DNA from: Verrucomicrobia bacterium 12-59-8
Lineage (GTDB): Bacteria > Verrucomicrobiota > Verrucomicrobiae > Verrucomicrobiales > Verrucomicrobiaceae
Length of the DNA: 23,694 nucleotides
Direction: 5' to 3'
NCBI GenBank assembly: GCA_002279765.1
Contig: NCCR01000098.1
Coordinates: forward strand, 1 to 23,694
Shown here: piece after piece, positions 3,754 to 22,464 of the stretch
Numbering within the stretch: the first letter of the stretch is position 1
How the letters are laid out: every line of letters starts with the position of its first letter
Position numbers and translations under genes: made by a program
Notes under the pieces: generated by a model
Seen by the model: the letters and a program-made list of their open reading frames with translations, nothing else
Told to the model about the DNA's origin: nothing
Databases searched by the model: none

Positions 3754-5025
3754 TCATAATGCTTCGAGGCAGGCCGCCATCCCCTGCCCGCCTCCGACGC
3801 AAAGGCTGATGACGGCGCGCTTGCCATCGCTGGCATGAAGTTGATTGAGCGCTGTCTGCACCAAACGTGCACCGGTCGCTCCCACGGGGTGGCCGAGCGC
3901 GATGGCTCCGCCACAGGCGTTGATCTTCGCGGGGTCAAGCTCACCCAGCGGTGCCTCCAATCCGGCGCGGCGGGCGCTGGCGGGATCAGCGAGACATTTC
4001 ATGACTGCCAGCACCTGGGCGGCAAAGGCTTCATTGAGTTCAAAGACATCCGCATCATCCAGTTTCCAGCCGCTGCGATGCAGTGCTGCATCCAGCGCAC
4101 GCACCGGACCAAGCCCCATGCGTGCGGGATCACAACCGGTAGCCGCATAACTGACAAGGCGGCCCAGCGGCTTCCAGTTGTGCGCCGCAGCAGCTTCTTC
4201 GGTGGCGACGAGCAGGGCCACCGCGCCATCGGTGATCTGGCTGGAGCTGCCTGCGGTTACTGTTCCAGTGACCGTGTCAAAAAGCGGCTTGAGTCTGCCC
4301 AGCTTTTCGAGGCTGGAGTCGGCACGGATGCCGTTGTCCGTCTCCACGATGTTGTGACCGAGCACCGGCGCGATTTCCTGATTGAGCAGGTGATTCGCCC
4401 GTGTGGCGCAAAGATGACTGCGCATGGCAAAGGCGTCCTGCATGTCACGCGTGATGCCAAACTCACGCGACAGCACCTCGGCGGTCTGCCCCATGTTCAA
4501 ACTCGAAACAGGGTCCGTCAGGCCAAGTTTCAGGCCGATGACAGGGGCAAAGTCAGCCGGACGGAAATGCAGCGCGGCTTTGGCACGACCGCTTAGGTCG
4601 CGGGCACGGCTCAAGGCGGTGAATTTTTCCACCGCAGGCCGTGAGAAATAGAATGGCATGTTGCTCATGCTTTCCGTCCCGCCGACAACGAAGACTTCGC
4701 CCTGTCCTGCGCACATTTTCGCATGCGCGAGCGTCAGCGCCTCCAGGCCGGAGGCGCAGTTGCGATGCACAGTCATGGCGGGCTTCGATTCTGGCAGACC
4801 TGCGCGCAGCGCGATGACGCGGGCGATGTTCATCGCTTCCGGCGGCTGGCCGACACAGCCTAGGATGGTTTCATCAACCAGCATCGGGTCGATGCCAGTG
4901 CGGGTGAGCAGTGCAGCGACAGCATGACGACCGAGTTCGACGGCATCCAAATGTGCGAGATCGGTGCCAGCGCGCGAAAAGGGCGTACGGACGGCGGCAA
5001 CTATGACAAGAGAGGGAGTTTTCAT
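3754..5025 (-). CDS. fadI: Acetyl-CoA acyltransferase (3-ketoacyl-CoA thiolase)
   Basis: Thiolytic cleavage of 3-ketoacyl-CoA to acetyl-CoA and a shortened acyl-CoA, the last step of beta-oxidation. The protein is 423 aa, nearer FadI than the ~387-aa FadA. The nucleophile Cys90 lies in HRNCASGLEA, the NEAFA motif is present, His379 sits in GGAIALGHPVGATGAR, and the second catalytic Cys409 is in CVGGGQGMA near the C terminus. The start at 5025 lies four bases after the TAA of the upstream ligase gene, which argues for coupling and against the longer in-frame ATG at 5085 that would overlap the ligase. The stop is at 3754, 35 bases before the preferred start of the next gene. Confidence 0.95.
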   Translation of the reverse strand: MKTPSLVIVAAVRTPFSRAGTDLAHLDAVELGRHAVAALLTRTGIDPMLVDETILGCVGQPPEAMNIARVIALRAGLPESKPAMTVHRNCASGLEALTLAHAKMCAGQGEVFVVGGTESMSNMPFYFSRPAVEKFTALSRARDLSGRAKAALHFRPADFAPVIGLKLGLTDPVSSLNMGQTAEVLSREFGITRDMQDAFAMRSHLCATRANHLLNQEIAPVLGHNIVETDNGIRADSSLEKLGRLKPLFDTVTGTVTAGSSSQITDGAVALLVATEEAAAAHNWKPLGRLVSYAATGCDPARMGLGPVRALDAALHRSGWKLDDADVFELNEAFAAQVLAVMKCLADPASARRAGLEAPLGELDPAKINACGGAIALGHPVGATGARLVQTALNQLHASDGKRAVISLCVGGGQGMAACLEAL

Positions 5026-7593: not shown

Positions 7594-7869
7594 ATGAACG
7601 ACTCCGAACTCAACCGTATGCTCAAACATGCCGCAACCGCCACCTCGGCAGCAGTGCCGCATGCTCTGGAGCAGATGATCATGGAGCGAGTGCGGAGCGA
7701 TGATGGCCGGGCAAGACGCTGGCGCTCCTTTGTCCAATGGCTGCTGCTCCTGGCCGCCCTCTCCGGCATCGTGACTGCAGGCGCGGTGGGCTGGGCAATG
7801 GCTTCGCGTGACACCACCCATACCACGCCACCCACCATGGAGCTGTTTCGCACAGGAGAGCCGCAATGA
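7594..7869 (+). CDS. Small single-TM protein, CnrY-like putative anti-sigma factor
   Basis: A 91-aa protein with about 46 cytoplasmic residues, one transmembrane helix (about 47-70, WLLLLAALSGIV...) and a short periplasmic tail. I do not recognise it by sequence motif alone. The call rests on position and shape: it precedes a CnrX-like sensor and an ECF sigma gene, and CnrY of Cupriavidus metallidurans is likewise a ~95-aa, one-helix protein whose cytoplasmic N terminus sequesters the sigma factor. A TTG at 7564 would add ten residues; the ATG at 7594 is preferred. The stop overlaps the next start as ATGA (7866-7869), which argues for translational coupling. It is divergent from the lipid operon. 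Confidence 0.55.
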   Translation: MNDSELNRMLKHAATATSAAVPHALEQMIMERVRSDDGRARRWRSFVQWLLLLAALSGIVTAGAVGWAMASRDTTHTTPPTMELFRTGEPQ

Positions 7870-8324
7870 CCTCAAGGGTGAAATGGCTGCTGCTCTCGGT
7901 TTTTTTCTCCGCTGCCTTGGCCGGGGGAACTGCATGGCTGGTCACGGACTGGACGCTCCATCGCCACGGCGAAAGTCACGCTAACGATCACGCACCGACA
8001 GATCTGCATGAGTGGATGCATGAGCACCTCGACATCACACCGGAGCAGCACGAAAAACTCGAGCCTCTTGAAATGGAGTTTGAAAAACTCCGTGCGAAAT
8101 TGAAGGACGAACTTCGGCTGGCCGATGTCGCACTGGCCCAGACCATCCGTGATCCGAAGATGAACGAAGCGGCGATGAACGCGGCCTTGGAACGGCTGAA
8201 CAAAGCCCAAGGCGCACTGCAGCGTGCCACGCTGGAACATTTTTTTGTGATGAAACGCTACCTGCGACCTGTGCAGGCCGCCAAACTCCTGGAGTGGACC
8301 CATGACAGCCTCACCCGCGATTGA
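7866..8324 (+). CDS. CnrX-like periplasmic metal-sensor protein
   Basis: Membrane-anchored periplasmic protein of 152 aa: an N-terminal hydrophobic helix (about 6-26), a His-rich linker (HRHGESHANDH, 32-42), then a helical hairpin domain of the metal-resistance/CnrX type. Residues matching the metal ligands of CnrX are all present: His48 and His52 (DLHEWMHE), Glu69, His125 and Met129 (LEHFFVM). Their spacing (+4, +17, +56, +4) equals that of His42, His46, Glu63, His119 and Met123 in CnrX as I recall it. The stretch GALQRATLEH is also close to CnrX. In that system Ni/Co binding causes release of the sigma factor. A Spy/CpxP-like chaperone role is the main alternative, but the sigma gene beside it favours sensing. 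Confidence 0.75.
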   Translation: MTSRVKWLLLSVFFSAALAGGTAWLVTDWTLHRHGESHANDHAPTDLHEWMHEHLDITPEQHEKLEPLEMEFEKLRAKLKDELRLADVALAQTIRDPKMNEAAMNAALERLNKAQGALQRATLEHFFVMKRYLRPVQAAKLLEWTHDSLTRD

Positions 8325-8916
8325 TGCGCTGCTGCTGCCGCAGACCGAGGTCTCCGCTGACGATTCAGCGGAGACGACGCACCTCCTTGCCGCACAGGCG
8401 GGCGACATGGCCGCGTTTGAATGGATCGTTCGGCGGCATGAGGAAAAGCTGTTTGGCTTTTGCTGCCGCTGGCTGCGCTGTGTGGAGGATGCGCGTGAAG
8501 TCTGCCAGGATACGTTTGTGCGCGCATGGCAGGCACTGCCAGAGTTCGAAGGCCGGGCAAAGCTTTCGACCTGGCTGTATCAGATCGCTTTAAACCTGTG
8601 CCGTGACCGCGCCAAATCGCGTGCTTCACGCCAGCGTGATAACACCACGACGATCAACGATCTCGAACAACCTCTGACGTGTCCGCAGAATGCTCCTGAT
8701 GCGAGCGCGGAGTGGCAGAGTGAGATGCAAAAGCTCGATCGTGGTCTGGCCCTGCTGCCGGAAAAACTGCGCACGGCCCTGATGCTCAGCACCATGGAAG
8801 GCCTCAGCCACGAGGAATGCGCCAAAGTGCTGAACTGTTCTGTGCGGGGCACCGAGGGCCGCATCTACCGCGCACGGCAGATGCTGCTGCGCTGGTGGGA
8901 CGAAGAAGGTCAGTGA
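8302..8916 (+). CDS. ECF-family RNA polymerase sigma factor (CnrH-like)
   Basis: Extracytoplasmic-function sigma factor, 204 aa. Region 2 spans about 27-107 (HEEKLFGFCCRWL, DAREVCQDTFVRAWQ, STWLYQIALNLCRDR), followed by a linker, and region 4 about 145-196 (LPEKLRTALML, GLSHEECAKVLNCS, GRIYRARQML). No region 3 is present, as expected for the class. The start at 8302 overlaps the sensor gene's end by 23 bases and has GGAG upstream. It most likely transcribes its own operon and a metal-homeostasis regulon located elsewhere. Its stop overlaps the convergent antiporter gene's stop by seven bases (8910-8916), so there is no room for a terminator between them. Confidence 0.93.
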   Translation: MTASPAIDALLLPQTEVSADDSAETTHLLAAQAGDMAAFEWIVRRHEEKLFGFCCRWLRCVEDAREVCQDTFVRAWQALPEFEGRAKLSTWLYQIALNLCRDRAKSRASRQRDNTTTINDLEQPLTCPQNAPDASAEWQSEMQKLDRGLALLPEKLRTALMLSTMEGLSHEECAKVLNCSVRGTEGRIYRARQMLLRWWDEEGQ

Positions 8917-9716
8917 TCATCACCGGCAACGCCCAGCGCTTTTTCAATGACCTGCGCGGCATCTGTGCGCCAGCTTATGATGACGCTGGGAAACAAGCCA
9001 CCGAAAATTAGAAAGACGACGCAGGCGGTGAGCGGCCAGCGTTCACGCGGTAGAGCATCGGGAATGTCGATCACATGCTTGGGCAGGACTCCCAGAAATA
9101 GGATGTTAAATAGACGCAGGAAATTGATCGCATTGAAGACAGTGGAGACCAGCAAAAGGATGCCTGCCGCCAGATGGTTTTTCAACATGCCGTGGAAGAT
9201 CAGCTCTTCAGCGCAATAACCCAGTGTTCCGGGCAGGCCGACGAGCGCCAGACCACAGACCAGAAAGAAAACGGCCAGGCGGGGTGCTTTGGCAGCAAGC
9301 CCCAGATGCATCAGCGGGTCCTCCGTACTGCTGACTCGAGCCTCCAGCACACGCACAATGCAGATGAGACCCGTGGAAGCTGCGGATACGACGAGCCAGT
9401 GCATGAGCGCACCGGTGATTCCTTCAGTATTGGCTGTGGCAATACCCGCAAGCATAAAGCTGGCCTGGCTGATGCATAAGAAGCCCAGCAAGCGGCGCGG
9501 CTTTTTTTCGGCAAAAGCCCGCAGACTGGCAACGCAGACCGTGGCGACGGCAGCGATGCTGAGAACATCAAATGCATGTCTGGCATTCGGCGGTAGCGCC
9601 ATGCCTTCCGAACGGGCGACGAGAAGCATGCCGAGGTGGCCGTTAAAGAGCAGCACCTTCGGCAGAAGATGCCCTTTTTCAAAAGCCTGCACCACCCCAG
9701 CATGGAGTGGGAACAA
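8910..9716 (-). CDS. NuoM/NuoN-like proton antiporter subunit, C-terminal fragment (frameshifted gene)
   Basis: C-terminal 268 aa of a polytopic membrane protein of the proton-translocating antiporter family (NuoL/M/N, Mrp). It holds about seven hydrophobic segments and the motif KGLFPLHAGVVQAFEKG, which corresponds to the conserved lysine/W-L-P-x-A region of NuoL/M. The TTG at 9716 is only the first possible start; homology-like sequence (LTHSAAFEGLSQ, TFGLIILAVVC) continues upstream in this frame to about 9814. The preceding 120-aa reading frame ends nearby at 9803. The two are parts of one ~418-codon gene separated by a one-base loss in a C run. As written the protein is broken. It is the third gene after dabA and dabB. 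Confidence 0.8.
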   Translation of the reverse strand: MFPLHAGVVQAFEKGHLLPKVLLFNGHLGMLLVARSEGMALPPNARHAFDVLSIAAVATVCVASLRAFAEKKPRRLLGFLCISQASFMLAGIATANTEGITGALMHWLVVSAASTGLICIVRVLEARVSSTEDPLMHLGLAAKAPRLAVFFLVCGLALVGLPGTLGYCAEELIFHGMLKNHLAAGILLLVSTVFNAINFLRLFNILFLGVLPKHVIDIPDALPRERWPLTACVVFLIFGGLFPSVIISWRTDAAQVIEKALGVAGDDH

Positions 9717-9802: not shown

Positions 9803-10165
9803 TCAGCGCGATAGGGCAGCGTAGGCCGTCTGCGTGGCAAGCGATATGAGCAGCATTCCGGCCATGGCCCGGCCGCCCGCATCACGCCTGGGCGCCAGCA
9901 CCAGCACAATGATTGTCAATGCTGCGTAAAAAGCCATCGGCACTGCATTCAAACCATCCGCTTCGAACCAGGGAATGAGTGGATCAACCAAGCGCCCATG
10001 CCCCGCAGCAATGACTTCCCGCGCGGCACCCATGAAAGTCACGAAAGCAATGACAGCTGCCAAGACGGCGGGCTTGTGCGGCTGCCTGGTCCGCCAGGTT
10101 GACACGACACCGCCCAGCAAGCACACCAGTCCGGTGGTGAGATAAGGCAGTGAAAGGTGTTCCAT
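9803..10165 (-). CDS. NuoM/NuoN-like proton antiporter subunit, N-terminal fragment (frameshifted gene)
   Basis: N-terminal 120 aa of the same membrane protein as the downstream fragment. It has four likely helices: about 6-20, 33-50, 77-92, and a last one containing MAGMLLISLATQTAYAA. The frame stops at 9803 immediately after ...TAYAALSR. Inserting one C in the run at about 9815-9817 would read ...AAPIALTHSAAFEG and join the two pieces without a gap. The ATG at 10165 lies 14 bases after the dabB stop, so the gene belongs to the dab operon. I see no GWE motif like the one in DabB/NuoL helix 5. A programmed -1 shift is conceivable, but no classic slippery heptamer is visible. Mutation or sequencing error is more likely. 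Confidence 0.74.
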   Translation of the reverse strand: MEHLSLPYLTTGLVCLLGGVVSTWRTRQPHKPAVLAAVIAFVTFMGAAREVIAAGHGRLVDPLIPWFEADGLNAVPMAFYAALTIIVLVLAPRRDAGGRAMAGMLLISLATQTAYAALSR

Positions 10166-16081: not shown

Positions 16082-18007
16082 TTAAAGGGCCTCGACCATG
16101 GGGATCGGCAGCGGAGAATGGCTGGAGCCTTCGGTCTGAAAGAAAGAAACCATGCCGGTATGAATGTCATACAGGGCTCCGACGATGACCAGTTGTCCGG
16201 CTTGCACCAGCCCGGTCAGAGTGCTGCTGCGCTCGGTGATCTTGCGCATGGTACGCAGCACATTGCGGCGAGAGACTTCGTTGGCGTAGGCCGCCTTCTC
16301 ACCGGCCAGCCACTCACCTTCACGCTTGCAGGTGCTGCGATCGACCGAGCTTTGAATTTCCGTGATGAGCGATTCAAGATTCACACAGCCCGTGGCTTCC
16401 ACGACCGTTTTGTTGCTGCAAATCAGATCCACGGCGGCATTGACCGCACCACAGGATGTGTGCCCCATGACGAGAATCATTCGCGCACCCGCCACCGCAC
16501 AGCTGTACTCCAGGCTCCCCAACACCTTGTCACGCGCGACGTTGCCTGCAATGCGCACGCTGAACACATCCCCCAGGCTCAAATCGAAAACGAGTTCTGC
16601 AGGCGTACGCGAGTCGATGCAGCTAAGCACCACCGCCATGGGAAACTGACCAGCCGAAGTCGCATCCACCAAACGGCCAATGTCGCGCGTCAGCTGCTGG
16701 CCTTCCCGGAAGCGCTCGTTGCCTGCCTTGAAGATTTCCAGCACCCGTTCAGGCGTCAGGCTGTTCTGCACTTCGCGACTGCTGTAATCCAAAAACCGAA
16801 TGCCGTCATTGAGCCCGGGGTACTTGTCTTTGAATCCTGCCAGGCTGAGCTGCACACCGTGCTCCTTCGCAGTGTTCTGCTGGAAATCGTTGATCAGGTT
16901 CAGAACGTCCGCATCAATGTAGTCCGTCCCACGCGCATCCAGGAGAATGCGGCCGCCGTCCGGCACGCTGCGCAGAGTTTGCTCCAGCTTAGCACGGCTG
17001 AAAAAACTCACCTGATGGGCCAGCTCAATGCGCAACACGTCTCCGGCAATGTGCCGCTCCATATACTTGCGCAGCGGATGGCTCAAAGTGCTGCGCAAAA
17101 TAAAACCGATGCTCACAGCAAGGCCAATGAGAATGCCAACCAGCAGGTCGGTCAGAACGATGGCCACGATCGTGATGATGAACGGCAGGAACTGTTTCCA
17201 GCCATCAGCCCACATTTGTTTGAGAAGTGCAGGACTCGCGAGCTTGAGGCCGGTCATGAACAGGATGGCACCCAGAGCGGCAAGCGGGATCTGATTCAGC
17301 AAGCCGGGCACCAGCAGTACGCTGCCAAGCAACAGAACGCCGTGGAAGATGGCGGAGAACTTGGTCTTCCCCCCAGCGTGGATGTTCACACTGCTGCGCA
17401 CGATCACACTGGTCATGGGCAGTCCGCCGATCAGCCCTGCAGTCACATTGCCAATCCCCTGCGCGATCAGCTCACGGTTGGGCGGACTGTTGCGCAGCTG
17501 CGGGTCAATCTTGTCCACCGCCTCCAGATTGAGCAGTGTCTCCAAACTGGCCACAATGGCGATGGTGAAAGCCGCGCCATAGACAGCCGGATTCCCCAAG
17601 GCGGAGAAATTGGGCAGTCTGAGAAAGCCGATAAACGCGCCGAGGTCCTGCGCCACCGGAACCTGCACCATGTGCGAGGACTCAATGACCCATGAACCGC
17701 CCAACTGCTTCAGCAGCAAACTGATGCCTACGCCCGCCACCACGACAGCCAGAGGACCCGGTACAGGGCCGTTCTTCAAGAATTTGCTCTTATCCCATAG
17801 AATGAGCAGAGCGATGGACAGCCCTCCCACCAGCGCAGCGCCTGGCTGGATGTCAAACAACGCGGACCAAATCTCGGTGAAGGTGTTCTCATGGTCGGGC
17901 TGCTGGAAATACATGTCCCCTTCCGAGTCGGGGTCGTGCCCCACGACGTGTGGGCTTTGTTTGAGAATCAGGATGACGCCGATGGCCGCTAACAGGCTCT
18001 TGCTCAC
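16082..18007 (-). CDS. SulP anion transporter (N-terminally incomplete) fused to STAS and beta-carbonic anhydrase
   Basis: Main part (641 aa) of a SulP-carbonic anhydrase fusion, a class thought to import bicarbonate or another anion and interconvert it with CO2. The transporter part has the signature [16 protein letters not shown] (154-169) and [10 protein letters not shown] (175-184). The STAS domain is about 325-410 ([17 protein letters not shown]), and the beta-carbonic anhydrase about 420-625 with zinc-site Cys463, Asp465 and Arg467 (CIDSR), His516 and Cys519 (HTSCGAV). The frame opens with GTG at 18007 inside the transporter, at [14 protein letters not shown], overlapping the stop of the N-terminal piece. 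About 23-26 residues that normally precede this point are absent. The transporter is likely non-functional as written, while the anhydrase looks complete. Confidence 0.92.
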
Positions 18008-18297
18008 ACGGCAAGCATCACGGCCAGAAGGAACGTCTCGAACGATCCCAGATTGCCGATCTGTGCGGCCACAATTGCGGTCAAGCCTGCGGCGGGCCCA
18101 CTGACGCTCGTCTGTGAACCGCTGAGGAATCCGACCAAAATGCCGCCGATGATTCCCGAGAGGATGCCCGCAAACAGCGGCGCATTAGACGCCAGCGCCA
18201 CGCCAAGACAAAGCGGCAGAGCCACCAGAAAGACGACGAGTCCGGCGGAGAGTTCTTTGAGTGGGGAAACAGGTGAGGCCGAGTGAGTGGCAGGCAT
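18004..18297 (-). CDS. SulP transporter N-terminal fragment (split from 16082-18007)
   Basis: First 97 aa of the SulP transporter. A short cytoplasmic start leads into [29 protein letters not shown] SulP helix 1, then [18 protein letters not shown] and the conserved [14 protein letters not shown]. It ends ...FLLAVMLAV and stops with TGA at 18006-18004. In intact relatives this helix runs on through a segment containing the conserved FFPSSVIKG motif into LLAAIG, which here reappears in a different frame. The junction therefore combines a deletion of roughly 70 bases with a frame change. The stop and the GTG of the next frame overlap as GTGA, so coupled translation of two chains is possible on paper. 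The gene starts 102 bases after the response-regulator stop. Confidence 0.86.
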
Positions 18298-18399: not shown

Positions 18400-19041
18400 T
18401 CAGTCAATCAACCCGTTGCGAATGGAAAAGCGCACCAGTTCGCCGATGGAATGCAAGTTGAGCTTTTCCATGATACGGCCCCGGTGAGCCTCCACAGTGT
18501 ACACGCTCAGGTTCAGCACTGAGGCGATTTCCTTGTTGGTCTTGCTCTCCGAGATCATCTGCAGCACCTCCCGTTCCCGTGGTGACAACAGGTCGATTGG
18601 GTTGGTGACGTGCTTGCGATAATCATCAAGCACCGCATCGCTGACCTCCGGACTGAGAAATCCCTTGCCGTTAGCGACAGCACGCACGGCAGAGAGAAGA
18701 TCGCTTTCGTTGCTGTCCTTGAGCAGGTAGCCGTTGGCTCCAGCACGCAGCATTTCACGCACATAGACGGAGTCTTTCTGCATGGAGAGCGCCAGGATGC
18801 GCGCCTTCGGCACTGCCTTGGTGATTTGCCGCGCGGCCTCGATGCCGTTGAGTTCGGGCATGGTCACATCCAAGACCACGATGTCAGGCTGTAGATCAAT
18901 AGCTTTGTCCACGGCATCACGGCCATTCGCGGCCTCGCCCACAACTTCCATGTCCCACTGCGCGGCGAGGATCATACGAAAGCCGTTGCGGACCACAGCA
19001 TGGTCATCGGCAAGAAGAATGCGTGTGGGTTTGGCAGACAT
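18400..19041 (-). CDS. NarL/FixJ-family response regulator (LuxR-type HTH)
   Basis: DNA-binding response regulator, 213 aa. The receiver domain (about 6-125) has the acidic pair Asp12/Asp13, phosphoacceptor Asp58 in VVLDVTMPE, Ser86 and Lys108 (YLLKDS). The LuxR/GerE helix-turn-helix (about 150-208) shows LLSPREREVLQMI, SKTNKEIASVLNLSVYTVEAHRGRI and a NarL-like end. The ATG at 19041 begins the receiver fold directly (MSAKPTRILLADDH); the longer in-frame start at 19149 would add 36 non-domain residues. It is the first gene of the minus-strand carbon locus and its natural partner is the kinase at 14750-16060, with the transporter between them. A weak -10-like TATGGT lies at 19056-19051, but it is too close to the start for a confident call. 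Confidence 0.95.
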   Translation of the reverse strand: MSAKPTRILLADDHAVVRNGFRMILAAQWDMEVVGEAANGRDAVDKAIDLQPDIVVLDVTMPELNGIEAARQITKAVPKARILALSMQKDSVYVREMLRAGANGYLLKDSNESDLLSAVRAVANGKGFLSPEVSDAVLDDYRKHVTNPIDLLSPREREVLQMISESKTNKEIASVLNLSVYTVEAHRGRIMEKLNLHSIGELVRFSIRNGLID

Positions 19042-19152
19042 GGGAAGACCACCATAGCGAACCTGCGGCTTACGGCAAAGGGCAAAAAACCGCCGCCATT
19101 TTGTGGGAACCTCTCCGTCCGGTCGTCCTAGAAGGTGCCCACAACCCACCTA

Positions 19153-21258
19153 ATGCCCCCCTTCCGCCTCTCCAGACTTTGTCTCAGCATCGCCTTGGCT
19201 CCCATGATAAGCCATGCCGAGTCCGCAGTAAAAGCACCGGGAGAAGGCGGCTCGCTGGCTGATGAATTGTCGCTAGAAATGCCCGAAATCGTCATCGAGG
19301 GCAAGGCGGAGAGCCTCATCGGAATAGCAACCTCGGCCTCAAAAGGCCAGACCAGCGCCAAGGAACTCATGGCACGGCCCTTTTCACGTCGTGGCGAGTT
19401 GCTGGAAAGCATTCCGGGCTTTATCGCCACGCAGCACAGCGGTGATGGCAAGGCGAACCAGTATTACCTGCGCGGCACGAACCTCGATCACGGCACCGAC
19501 TTTGCGATCTATGTGGATGGCATGCCGGTGAACCTGCGCAACCACGCGCACGGCCAGGGCTATGCGGACACGAACTTCATCATCCCGGAGCTGGTCGGTC
19601 AGCTTGAATATTGGAAGGGCACCTACTACGCGCAGCATGGTGATCTCAGCTCCACCGGAGCGGCTCGCTTCAAGCTGCTGGATGCGCTGCCGCAGGGCAT
19701 TCTCTCCACCACCTGGGGCGAATATGAGTACTCGCGCACGCTGATCGCGGACACGATCCAGGCTGGCACCGGGCAGCTCACCTTGGCCTTGGAGCATCAG
19801 TACTACAACGGCCCTTGGGATTTGCATTCAGACGCCACCCGCTTGAACGGTTTCCTGCGCTGGCACTGGGAGGACGCCAGGGACAAGATCAACCTGACCT
19901 TCATGGGCTATCACGGCCAATGGAAGTCCACCGACCAAGTGCCACAGCGTGCCATCGACAGCGGTCTGATCGGTCGTTATGGGAACCTTGATCCAACAGA
20001 CGGTGGCAATTCACAACGCTACAGCCTGTCGTTCGACTGGGTGCGCAATGAAGGCCGCACCACCACACGTGCCAATGCTTACGCGGGCTTTTACGACCTT
20101 GATCTGTTTTCCAATTTCACCTTCTACATGGACAGCATCGCACGTGGCGACACGCTGGGTGACCAGTTCGAGCAAAAGGACCATCGCTGGTTTCTCGGGG
20201 GCGAACTCGCGCGTGACTGGCGTTTCGATGCCATGGGTCAAGAGCAGCGCTTTACACTCGGCATGCAGTTGCGTACGGACATCATCACCGGCCTTGGCCT
20301 GTACAACACCTCTCAGCGCGAGCGCTGGAACACCGTGCGGCAGGATGACATCACCCAGTCCACGTACGGCCTCTACGCGGAGGCTGAACTCAAGCCCGTT
20401 CGCTGGCTACGCATCATCCCCGGTCTGCGCGGCGACTTGTTTCAATTCAACGTGGAAAAGAGCAACCTCCCGGAGAATGCGGGGTCGCTGACCAAGGGCA
20501 TCGTCAGTCCGAAGCTCAGCATGGTGTTCGGCCCCTGGGCTAAAACAGAGCTATATGTGAACGCTGGCATGGGCTTCCACAGCAATGACGCACGCGGAGT
20601 AAACATCACGACCGATCCTAACACTGGCGGCCCGGCAGATCGCGTCAATCCGCTGGTGCGCACCTACGGCGCAGAAATCGGCATTCGCAACGAGTCCATT
20701 CCCAAGCTGGTGAACACACTCTCCTTTTGGATGCTGCACAGCGATTCGGAGCTGATCTACACGGGTGATGCCGGCACCACCGAGCCGGGAGCAGCCTCAA
20801 TACGCCATGGCATTGAACTTTCCAGCTACTGGCGTCCCGAGGATTGGGTCATGGTCGATATAGAGGCAACGTTGACCGAAGCTCACTTGGTCAATACCGA
20901 TCCACCCAACCAAAAGATCCCCAACTCCATTCCCTACACCTTCAATGGCGGCATCACGCTCGGGGGCACGCAGGGCTTCTTCGGCTCGTTGCGTGCTCGT
21001 TACTTTGCACCACGGCCCTTGGATTCAGTGGTGGACGTCAAAACGCGCGATTCATTGCAGGTCAATGCCCGCCTCGGCTATCGCAAGAAAAATTGGGAGA
21101 TCGCCATGGACTGTCTGAACCTGCTCAACCGCAGCGACTACGATGTGGCCTACTACTATGCCTCCCAGCTTAAAAGTGATGCAGCCCCGGTGGATGGTGT
21201 GCATGTGCATCCCATTGAACCGCGCATGTTTCGTCTCTCGGTGACCTGGCGCTTCTAA
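19153..21258 (+). CDS. TonB-dependent outer-membrane receptor
   Basis: Outer-membrane active transporter, 701 aa. From the ATG at 19153 the N terminus is a standard signal peptide (about 1-22, likely cut after SHA). A possible TonB box follows (PEIVIEG, 44-50), then the plug domain (about 65-180) with YYLRGTNLDHGTDFAIYVDGMP and KGTYYAQHGDLSSTGAARF. A ~500-residue beta-barrel rich in alternating aromatic residues ends in the terminal Phe of SVTWRF. A GTG at 19135 would add six residues in front of the signal peptide. The ligand is not evident; the plug is His-rich (RNHAHGQGYAD) and the end has HVHPIEPR, which could fit a metal complex, but that is a guess. It is divergent from the response regulator, sharing about 110 bases of upstream DNA. 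Confidence 0.92.
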   Translation: MPPFRLSRLCLSIALAPMISHAESAVKAPGEGGSLADELSLEMPEIVIEGKAESLIGIATSASKGQTSAKELMARPFSRRGELLESIPGFIATQHSGDGKANQYYLRGTNLDHGTDFAIYVDGMPVNLRNHAHGQGYADTNFIIPELVGQLEYWKGTYYAQHGDLSSTGAARFKLLDALPQGILSTTWGEYEYSRTLIADTIQAGTGQLTLALEHQYYNGPWDLHSDATRLNGFLRWHWEDARDKINLTFMGYHGQWKSTDQVPQRAIDSGLIGRYGNLDPTDGGNSQRYSLSFDWVRNEGRTTTRANAYAGFYDLDLFSNFTFYMDSIARGDTLGDQFEQKDHRWFLGGELARDWRFDAMGQEQRFTLGMQLRTDIITGLGLYNTSQRERWNTVRQDDITQSTYGLYAEAELKPVRWLRIIPGLRGDLFQFNVEKSNLPENAGSLTKGIVSPKLSMVFGPWAKTELYVNAGMGFHSNDARGVNITTDPNTGGPADRVNPLVRTYGAEIGIRNESIPKLVNTLSFWMLHSDSELIYTGDAGTTEPGAASIRHGIELSSYWRPEDWVMVDIEATLTEAHLVNTDPPNQKIPNSIPYTFNGGITLGGTQGFFGSLRARYFAPRPLDSVVDVKTRDSLQVNARLGYRKKNWEIAMDCLNLLNRSDYDVAYYYASQLKSDAAPVDGVHVHPIEPRMFRLSVTWRF

Positions 21259-21639
21259 CCCCTTCGATGACCTGCGGTTCGTCGCTATCCAGCGATTGCT
21301 TGCGCCTCCCGTTGCCCCCCCCTCGCAGCCAGCAGGCCGGGCAGCATCACTGCCCCAAAAGGGCCTTCCGGTTGGTGATGCGCGCCCACCTATAAAGGCA
21401 GTCAACAGTTGGAGTTGTCAGAAATATCTCACAAATGTCATAATTGATTAATTTATTGTATGTGATTTGCAAAATTGCCATTATTTAATTTGGACCTATA
21501 GCCATTTAAGCATAATTAATCGAAATAATCATAAACTAAACGCTTTACAGAGAATTGTTTCAATTATAATTCATGGCGTGTTATTCATTTAGGTTCGGTG
21601 AATCTATTCTGAGTGTCATTAATGCTAGCATTTGCATCC
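21259..21639 (+). promoter_or_regulatory. Intergenic region with AT-rich tract and candidate promoter
   Basis: A 381-base gap. The first ~160 bases are GC-rich and hold two small hairpins, TCGCT/AGCGA (21282-21286 with 21291-21295) and GGGCAG/CTGCCC (21339-21344 with 21350-21355). Neither has a proper U tract, so termination of the receptor gene there is only possible. From about 21415 to 21610 the sequence turns strongly AT-rich. A promoter-like pair TTTACA (21544-21549) and TATAAT (21565-21570), with a short 15-base spacer, lies about 70 bases before the PEP-CTERM start. I see no coding sequence in the gap. Confidence 0.4.
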
Positions 21640-22464
21640 ATGAAAACGCCATCTTCTGCCCATCAGCCGCAAGGCCTGCCTATATCGGTTGCCACTGCTG
21701 CCGTGCTGCTTGCTTTTACCAGCTTTGGTTTTGCCTCCACCATTGAACTGAATCAGCCCTACGTCCCGGCCGGTGCGAACTACAGCATCACCGCACTGCA
21801 AAACCTGACTCCTTTGACCTTGGATGGTGGAACACCGGTGGGAGCCAATCCGAATGTGAACTTTGAGTTCCAGGGTGGTTTCGGGGTACGCTATCAGACG
21901 GCCTACGGCCAACTGACCGATTTTGGCATCGGCCTCTACGATGCGAGCTGCGCCCCCGGCATCCAAACTGCTTCCACCGGCCTGAGCATCGCTTTTGACC
22001 ACTTGGTCTCCAGCCATGGCCTCTCCGCCACCCTGGGAGACTTCGACCTCGACGAATTTTCGATCGACGCCAATCCCGGCAAGGTGGCCCCGACAATCTC
22101 CATCTATGGCAACGGCGGTTTACTGCTCGGTAACTTTTCGACCGCAGACATCATTGCTGGCAATGCCATGAGCTTGCTGACGAGCAATGATCCGATCACC
22201 CAGACGGACCTTTGGAAGCTCAACTTGGATGCGCTGGTCGGCCCCAACGTTCAGATTTCAGGCTTTACTCTGGCCGCAGACACCCACAATGGGAGCGGCA
22301 GCTTGATGGCCGTCGAGAGTGAACCCTACTTTTTCGTCGCGGTGAACGGCGGCGACTGTGCCATGGTTCCAGAGCCGGGCTCGGCCTTCCTGATCTTGAG
22401 TGCCGGCATCGGTACCCTGATCGTCACCCGCCGCCGCAGTCGCGACCTGTTCTCAGCCAAGTGA
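21640..22464 (+). CDS. PEP-CTERM sorting-domain protein (exosortase substrate)
   Basis: Secreted protein of 274 aa. A signal peptide (about 1-33, hydrophobic ISVATAAVLLAFTSFGFA) is followed by a ~205-residue beta-rich extracellular domain that I do not recognise, with two cysteines. The C-terminal sorting signal has VPEPGS (243-248), a hydrophobic helix (AFLILSAGIGTLIV) and the basic tail TRRRSR. Such proteins are cleaved and anchored by an exosortase and are common in Gram-negative bacteria that make exopolysaccharide, including Verrucomicrobia. Earlier starts at 21622 (ATG) and 21613 (GTG) are possible; 21640 gives the cleanest signal peptide. No exosortase gene is in the window. The gene stands alone between an AT-rich upstream region and a strong terminator. 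Confidence 0.9.
   Translation: MKTPSSAHQPQGLPISVATAAVLLAFTSFGFASTIELNQPYVPAGANYSITALQNLTPLTLDGGTPVGANPNVNFEFQGGFGVRYQTAYGQLTDFGIGLYDASCAPGIQTASTGLSIAFDHLVSSHGLSATLGDFDLDEFSIDANPGKVAPTISIYGNGGLLLGNFSTADIIAGNAMSLLTSNDPITQTDLWKLNLDALVGPNVQISGFTLAADTHNGSGSLMAVESEPYFFVAVNGGDCAMVPEPGSAFLILSAGIGTLIVTRRRSRDLFSAK

Follow-up and report, generated by a model that had tools for sequence, protein, structure and literature searches.

This study identified, within the window (the whole stretch of DNA analysed, 23,694 nucleotides), a set of three genes resembling those of CnrY, CnrX and CnrH together with the gene of a TonB-dependent receptor, and sequence comparison makes it probable that a CnrYXH-like switch has here been rewired to this import receptor, with nickel or cobalt as the most likely metal. 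Of the periplasmic switches for nickel/cobalt resistance CnrYXH is the best known, and in this lineage its sensor parts appear to have been put to new use, in uptake instead of defence. In the circuit that we propose, the anti-sigma protein Y would retain H, the sigma factor, at the membrane, and the periplasmic sensor X would bind a divalent metal through a His-His-Glu-His-Met site and signal to Y. The freed H would then guide RNA polymerase to a GGG-N16-CGT promoter predicted to precede one gene, that of the TonB-dependent receptor through which the metal would be imported across the outer membrane.

The three genes of the trio lie on the forward strand in the order Y, X and H, and they overlap by 4 nt (Y/X) and 23 nt (X/H) as read in the window. 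Y (7594..7869) is an anti-sigma-like protein of 91 aa, recognised as an open reading frame with a weak NCBIfam antisigma match (1.3e-5) and a profile match to the CnrY-type set, and its single transmembrane segment was placed by eye at about 7729-7803 on the same strand. X (7866..8324) is a CnrX-type periplasmic metal sensor of 152 aa with an N-terminal transmembrane anchor, as indicated by PDB, Pfam, AlphaFold and Foldseek comparisons, and H (8302..8916) is an ECF sigma factor of 204 aa according to Pfam and the PDB. The preliminary description had likened this arrangement to CnrY, CnrX and CnrH, and the likeness was confirmed. A scan of genome contigs yielded 35 loci, and Y, X and H were complete and in order in 31 of 36 when the window is included; four of the five incomplete trios are truncated where the contig ends, and in the fifth (L031) no Y was detected. 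The genome-wide counts given here derive from the genomes of relatives.

H matched both Pfam sigma profiles, r2 (2.5e-17) and r4 (1.4e-12). In the PDB it matched CnrH (4cxf, 7.4e-19), but a chain of the sigma-H/AlgU type scored better (1e-26), and nothing on the classification of CnrH was found in the open-licence literature. Pairwise comparison of Y with CnrY showed no similarity (shuffle z 0.7) and the profile of Y returned nothing relevant from the PDB; profile-profile comparison with the CnrY-type set gave a probability score of 87.8 over 44 columns, covering the cytoplasmic part. Neither Y nor the receptor gave a Pfam match, at E up to 1, to a FecR-type or N-terminal signalling domain.

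The identity of X is more firmly anchored in known structures. Unguided phmmer searches against the PDB returned CnrX (3zg1, E=4.8e-12) and NccX (4clv, E=8.7e-11), the Pfam match was to Metal_resist (E=8.2e-13), and the best 15 Foldseek matches of the AlphaFold model (pLDDT 86.5) were all CnrX or NccX. In a gapless core alignment, H48, H52, E69, H125 and M129 of X fall on H42, H46, E63, H119 and M123 of CnrX, and the corresponding forward-strand codons lie at 8007..8021 (His48 and His52, the first ligand pair), 8070..8072 (Glu69) and 8238..8252 (His125 and Met129). We take H42, H46, E63 and H119 to be the metal ligands of CnrX. Met123 is given as a ligand too in PMC7689651. Among relatives, H48, H52 and E69 were kept in 121/121 rows (the window plus 120 of 172 matches) and H125 and M129 in 120 of these rows, the remaining one being gapped. 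All five were kept in 44/44 rows of a wider set reaching other families, Proteobacteria included, which amounts to 43 distinct rows because L123 and L196 represent one and the same locus. The equal spacing of five CnrX-equivalent ligands, claimed earlier from the letters of the window, is thus borne out by alignment to CnrX and by conservation. An identical ligand set occurs in modules standing before copper-resistance genes, so that the metal cannot be read from these five residues, and the pentad as proof of nickel or cobalt was ruled out.

Besides the members of the trio, the most frequent neighbour, obtained by clustering of called genes, is a TonB-dependent receptor, which was present in 22 of the 36 loci. 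In 17 loci it follows H in the same orientation after 9-346 nt; in five (the window, L001, L004, L006 and L032) it is found 4.5-10.2 kb downstream, separated from H by genes for a histidine kinase, a response regulator and SulP and sometimes by inorganic-carbon genes. In the window, the receptor gene, the predicted target of H, occupies 19153..21258 on the forward strand; its mechanical open reading frame begins at a GTG (19135), and the ATG at 19153 was judged more likely as the start. The protein has a plug and a beta-barrel (PF07715 and PF00593), and its outer-membrane receptor character is also seen in Foldseek matches and in an AlphaFold barrel whose plug is modelled at low confidence. 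The preliminary description had read the module as a metal sensor, an anti-sigma and an ECF sigma, which stands, and had suggested that it may control a regulon other than cnrCBA, which is probable; it had missed this likely target 10 kb downstream. The lipid and inorganic-carbon loci that it named as neighbours are present, but only in 14/36 and 9/36 loci respectively, many loci being cut short.

The linkage extends beyond the first set of loci. The receptor family is present in 27 of 29 X-bearing genomes, the exceptions (G010 and G025) being small assemblies. Across 288 genomes of the order, X was detected in 81, the receptor in 121 and both in 76, so that the receptor occurs in 76/81 X-bearing versus 45/207 X-less genomes (Fisher 3e-31, a value that ignores kinship), and 50 of 85 order-wide X matches are followed by a same-strand receptor gene less than 3.5 kb away.

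Some peculiarities of the neighbouring genes were also observed. The Dab-type antiporter subunit is represented by two open reading frames in the window (8910-9716 and 9803-10165, minus strand) compared with one of 453-467 aa in seven relatives, and the SulP/carbonic-anhydrase-like gene by two (16082-18007 and 18004-18297, minus strand) compared with about 760 aa in several relatives. A PEP-CTERM-like protein is encoded behind the receptor at 21613-22464, and likewise in L001, L012 and L032, a single gene intervening in the first and last of these. In L010, the gene directly behind the receptor (4380-4811) encodes 143 aa that include the stretch HPCALC and gave no Pfam match. In many X-less Verrucomicrobiales loci (L137-L176), a small membrane protein of about 120-200 aa is encoded before the receptor. 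Its end is conserved and rich in proline (APPLPPPR, for example), and four of these proteins gave no Pfam match over the cut-off.

The predicted H-dependent promoter of the receptor gene is located at 19099..19127 on the forward strand and has the form TTTTGTGGG-N14-GTCGTC, with a -35 TGGG, 16 nt and a -10 CGT. This motif was found, with 0-2 mismatches, shortly upstream of 28 of 29 receptor genes (the window and 28 others), with the 14 spacer bases varying freely, and the one exception, L085, belongs to the most distant genome of the set. Written as TTNTGTGGG-N14-GTCGTC, it is near-unique: exact matches numbered 17 across 29 genomes, never more than one per genome, and every one stands before the receptor and none before other genes, compared with six matches for the reversed pattern used as a control. 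In 6 of these 17 genomes the receptor lies outside the examined locus of the trio, and in 3 the trio and the receptor are on different contigs. At up to three mismatches the window holds a single match, the perfect one, and since 49 of 100 shuffles also have a match at that laxity, the weight rests on the perfect match and its conservation and not on the count. The lipid and inorganic-carbon genes were rejected as targets on this single position and on the locus counts given above. With one mismatch allowed, both the motif and its reversed pattern commonly match away from the receptor order-wide, so that weaker extra targets may exist. The trio, the motif and the receptor are also carried by a culturable relative, Brevifollis gellanilyticus NBRC 108608 (L021). 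One genome, G001, carries two trios and two receptors (L001 and L015), the promoter of the second receptor having two mismatches, and it offers a natural test of cross-talk.

These exact matches also bear on the possibility of an ordinary metal-stress role, in which the trio would switch an RND pump located elsewhere and the receptor would be a bystander. The absence of an efflux pump noted in the preliminary description holds within the window but not for the relatives, where a search for CzcA/CnrA-type RND genes placed the heavy-metal RND family (TIGR00914) over the cut-off in 29/29 genomes, and both the CnrH system (PMC7689651) and the copper modules are resistance switches. The placement of every exact match in these 29 genomes before the receptor, although weaker sites before RND genes may exist, and the persistence of the trio-receptor linkage across the order argue against such a bystander role, which we consider improbable.

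In distant families the motif reads RTGGG-N15-TCGTY, and this strict form was present in 45 of 63 distinct receptor upstreams with X versus 0/40 without X. Eighteen of the 63 lack it, and 10 also lack the relaxed core, [GTA]GGG-N16-CGT. The relaxed core was detected in 28/28 first-set, 25/35 distant and 2/40 X-less receptor upstreams, against shuffle expectations of about 2.9, 3.1 and 2.8, respectively, counts to be read with the motif having been derived from the receptor upstreams themselves and the relaxed form picked after inspecting the sets. For these counts, 40 of 45 X-less receptor genomes were used (G125, G149, G154, G192 and G253 were left out), L120, L121 and L133 were omitted as having no receptor in the stretch examined, and L123 and L196 were counted once, giving the 63 distinct X-bearing and 35 distant upstreams. 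Across the receptor tree, the X label switches no fewer than 7 times. When 7 independent pairs were compared, the motif went with X in a mean of 4.8, went against it in 0 and showed no difference in 2.2 (median sign-test p 0.0625); this kinship control agrees in direction with the motif tracking X, and is borderline and not strong alone.

The core of this motif recurs in the promoters of related switches. According to PMC9045368, cnrYp and cnrCp are CnrH-dependent promoters, and GGGG-N16-CGT was found in both of them on pMOL28 of C. metallidurans. Among plasmid trios related to X (6 viewed of 79 records), five stand directly before copA-copB with the same five ligands and the sixth, from Caulobacter, lies among copper genes. 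AGGG-N16-CGT occurs upstream of copA in 5/5 sphingomonad trios. For the upstreams of cnrC and the five copA genes, a spacer of 16 was matched in 6/6 (P 8e-9 versus shuffles), and among the other spacers from 10 to 22, 15 was matched three times, 12 and 17 once each and the rest never. A -10 CGT is general among ECF sigma factors and their usual -35 has AAC, as stated in PMC8103513; a GGG -35 would be a mark of the CnrH-type group. H probably reads the receptor motif, to judge from this shared core. As a separate observation, the CnrX-type trios on sphingomonad plasmids before copA-copB (L208-L212 and L058) raise the idea that modules of this kind widely have copper as their input or output.

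Some other protein might read the receptor promoter, for example the adjoining NarL-type response regulator (18400-19149), the trio then controlling other genes. The gene of this regulator is divergent from the receptor in the clade of the window and from Y in L012, L017, L020, L022 and L023. In L010, L014, L015, L016, L018, L021, L024-L026 and L029, however, the receptor and its motif stand behind H, and the stretch examined contains no gene that clusters with the regulator. Moreover, the motif tracks X, carries the CnrH promoter core and is not palindromic, and we regard such a reader as very improbable.

Autoregulation of the trio was rejected, as the relaxed core precedes Y in 1 of 32 upstreams (0.9 in shuffles) and the strict motif stays at shuffle level; a sigma-70 promoter scan upstream of Y found none. 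Because the trio is not under the GGG-N16-CGT promoter, the circuit would be an open loop, as in FecI-type systems. FecI is an ECF sigma factor serving the gene of a TonB-dependent receptor, with the signal passing through the signalling domain of the receptor and FecR. The module studied here resembles FecI-FecR-FecA in having an ECF sigma that would serve a receptor gene without driving its own expression, and differs in that the signal would enter by a CnrX-type periplasmic sensor and not by a receptor signalling domain and FecR. A lack of autoregulation among FecI-like ECF sigma factors is described in PMC8103513.

As regards the substrate, nickel or cobalt, free or chelated, is most likely what the receptor imports; this is our best guess from gene neighbourhoods. 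Plasmid relatives of the receptor were viewed in 11 of 55 records, two of them without annotation. Seven of the nine annotated loci have nikR, HoxN or hydrogenase genes beside the receptor or no more than 5 kb from it, which suggests nickel or cobalt; of the remaining two, one is near cobalamin genes and one has HupE/UreJ 7 kb away. The receptor of the window is 40-43% identical to these seven, which may be of the same kind as Bll6948, Daro_3944 and others, named as nickel TonB-dependent transporters in PMC11247825. Unlike the NikR-linked nickel receptors, it is paired with a sigma switch and NikR is not adjacent. A HupE/UreJ gene lies directly downstream of the receptor in 4/8 X-less Verrucomicrobia loci, and six receptor histidines, four of them in the plug region, are near-invariant across 62 sequences that include the nickel-linked ones.

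The main alternative is copper, because the copper-linked trios share the ligand set. H would still drive the receptor, but the metal would be copper (or zinc) and the receptor an OprC-like importer or a part of copper handling, which is possible although we hold it to be rather unlikely. Besides the plasmid trios before copA-copB, this reading draws on L216, one of the eight X-less loci, where genes for a multicopper oxidase and a YHS-domain protein precede the receptor. It also draws on OprC, which the Foldseek comparison of the receptor returned from rank 21 on, below receptors for PQQ and iron. The gene content of the nearest genomes also speaks against nickel. A survey of hydrogenase, urease and HupE genes covered G001-G029 without G010 and G025 (27), 15 distant X-bearing genomes and 20 with neither X nor the receptor; in the 27 X-bearing first-set genomes it found no NiFe hydrogenase, a full urease in 2 (two more having weak partial matches), HupE_UreJ in 2 and HupE_UreJ_2 in 2. 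Against copper stand the nikR, HoxN or hydrogenase genes beside the plasmid relatives and the HupE/UreJ genes behind the X-less receptors, L216 itself included.

Other approaches to the substrate gave less direction. NikR was found in 0/20 close X-bearing, 10/15 distant X-bearing and 23/45 X-less genomes, a distribution showing that the trio is no simple stand-in for NikR, and CbiM was found in 0/80 genomes, both surveys covering 35/81 X-bearing and 45/45 X-less genomes. Before the X-less receptors, NikR boxes with at most 3 mismatches were counted in 13/40 versus about 10 in shuffles. A phmmer search of the receptor against the PDB gave no match at 1e-5, its profile reaches BtuB, YncD and a PQQ transporter weakly, and its Foldseek matches included receptors for PQQ, iron, copper and B12 without distinction, which makes structure no guide to the substrate. 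The window gave no match in Rfam and tRNA scans, and hence no known B12 riboswitch precedes the receptor.

The direction of the response is, by analogy with CnrX, presumably induction by metal. According to PMC7689651, metal on CnrX, with Met123 recruited, loosens the grip of CnrY on CnrH. If this mechanism holds here, periplasmic metal would induce its own import receptor. A metal-induced importer is counter-intuitive and counts against our best explanation, the rewired import switch; if import answers shortage, the polarity of the sensor must be inverted. Ferric citrate, on the other hand, induces its own import in the Fec system. That the sensor reports periplasmic metal to control import, either with the metal-free form freeing the sigma factor or in a Fec-like manner with the sensor reading the substrate, is to us an evenly balanced proposition.

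Taken against the known systems, the module agrees with CnrYXH of Cupriavidus metallidurans pMOL28 and with NccYXH in gene order, CnrX fold, five ligands and ECF sigma, and also in having a GGG-N16-CGT promoter just behind the sigma gene and before the target. It departs from CnrYXH, a nickel/cobalt resistance switch (PMC7689651), in having a TonB-dependent receptor as the predicted target in place of the cnrCBA RND efflux genes, and in lacking a GGG-N16-CGT promoter before Y, where cnr has the CnrH-dependent cnrYp (PMC9045368); on these two differences we do not count it as a CnrYXH member. With the sphingomonad plasmid trios, whose X is labelled 'periplasmic heavy metal sensor', it shares the trio, the five ligands and the promoter core before the target, whereas the target there is copper resistance and the X of the five viewed is 34-38% identical over about 70-76% of the length. 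No description of a CnrYXH-like trio driving an import receptor was found in the open-licence literature.

The same parts and promoter core would accordingly serve three outputs, namely RND efflux, copper resistance and outer-membrane uptake, and GGG-N16-CGT would provide a testable rule for locating genes controlled by CnrH-type sigma factors. A single import gene would be the main output of the trio in Verrucomicrobiales. Our data thus point to a candidate regulator of metal uptake for this order, and to a clean case for asking whether the polarity of such a sensor can flip.
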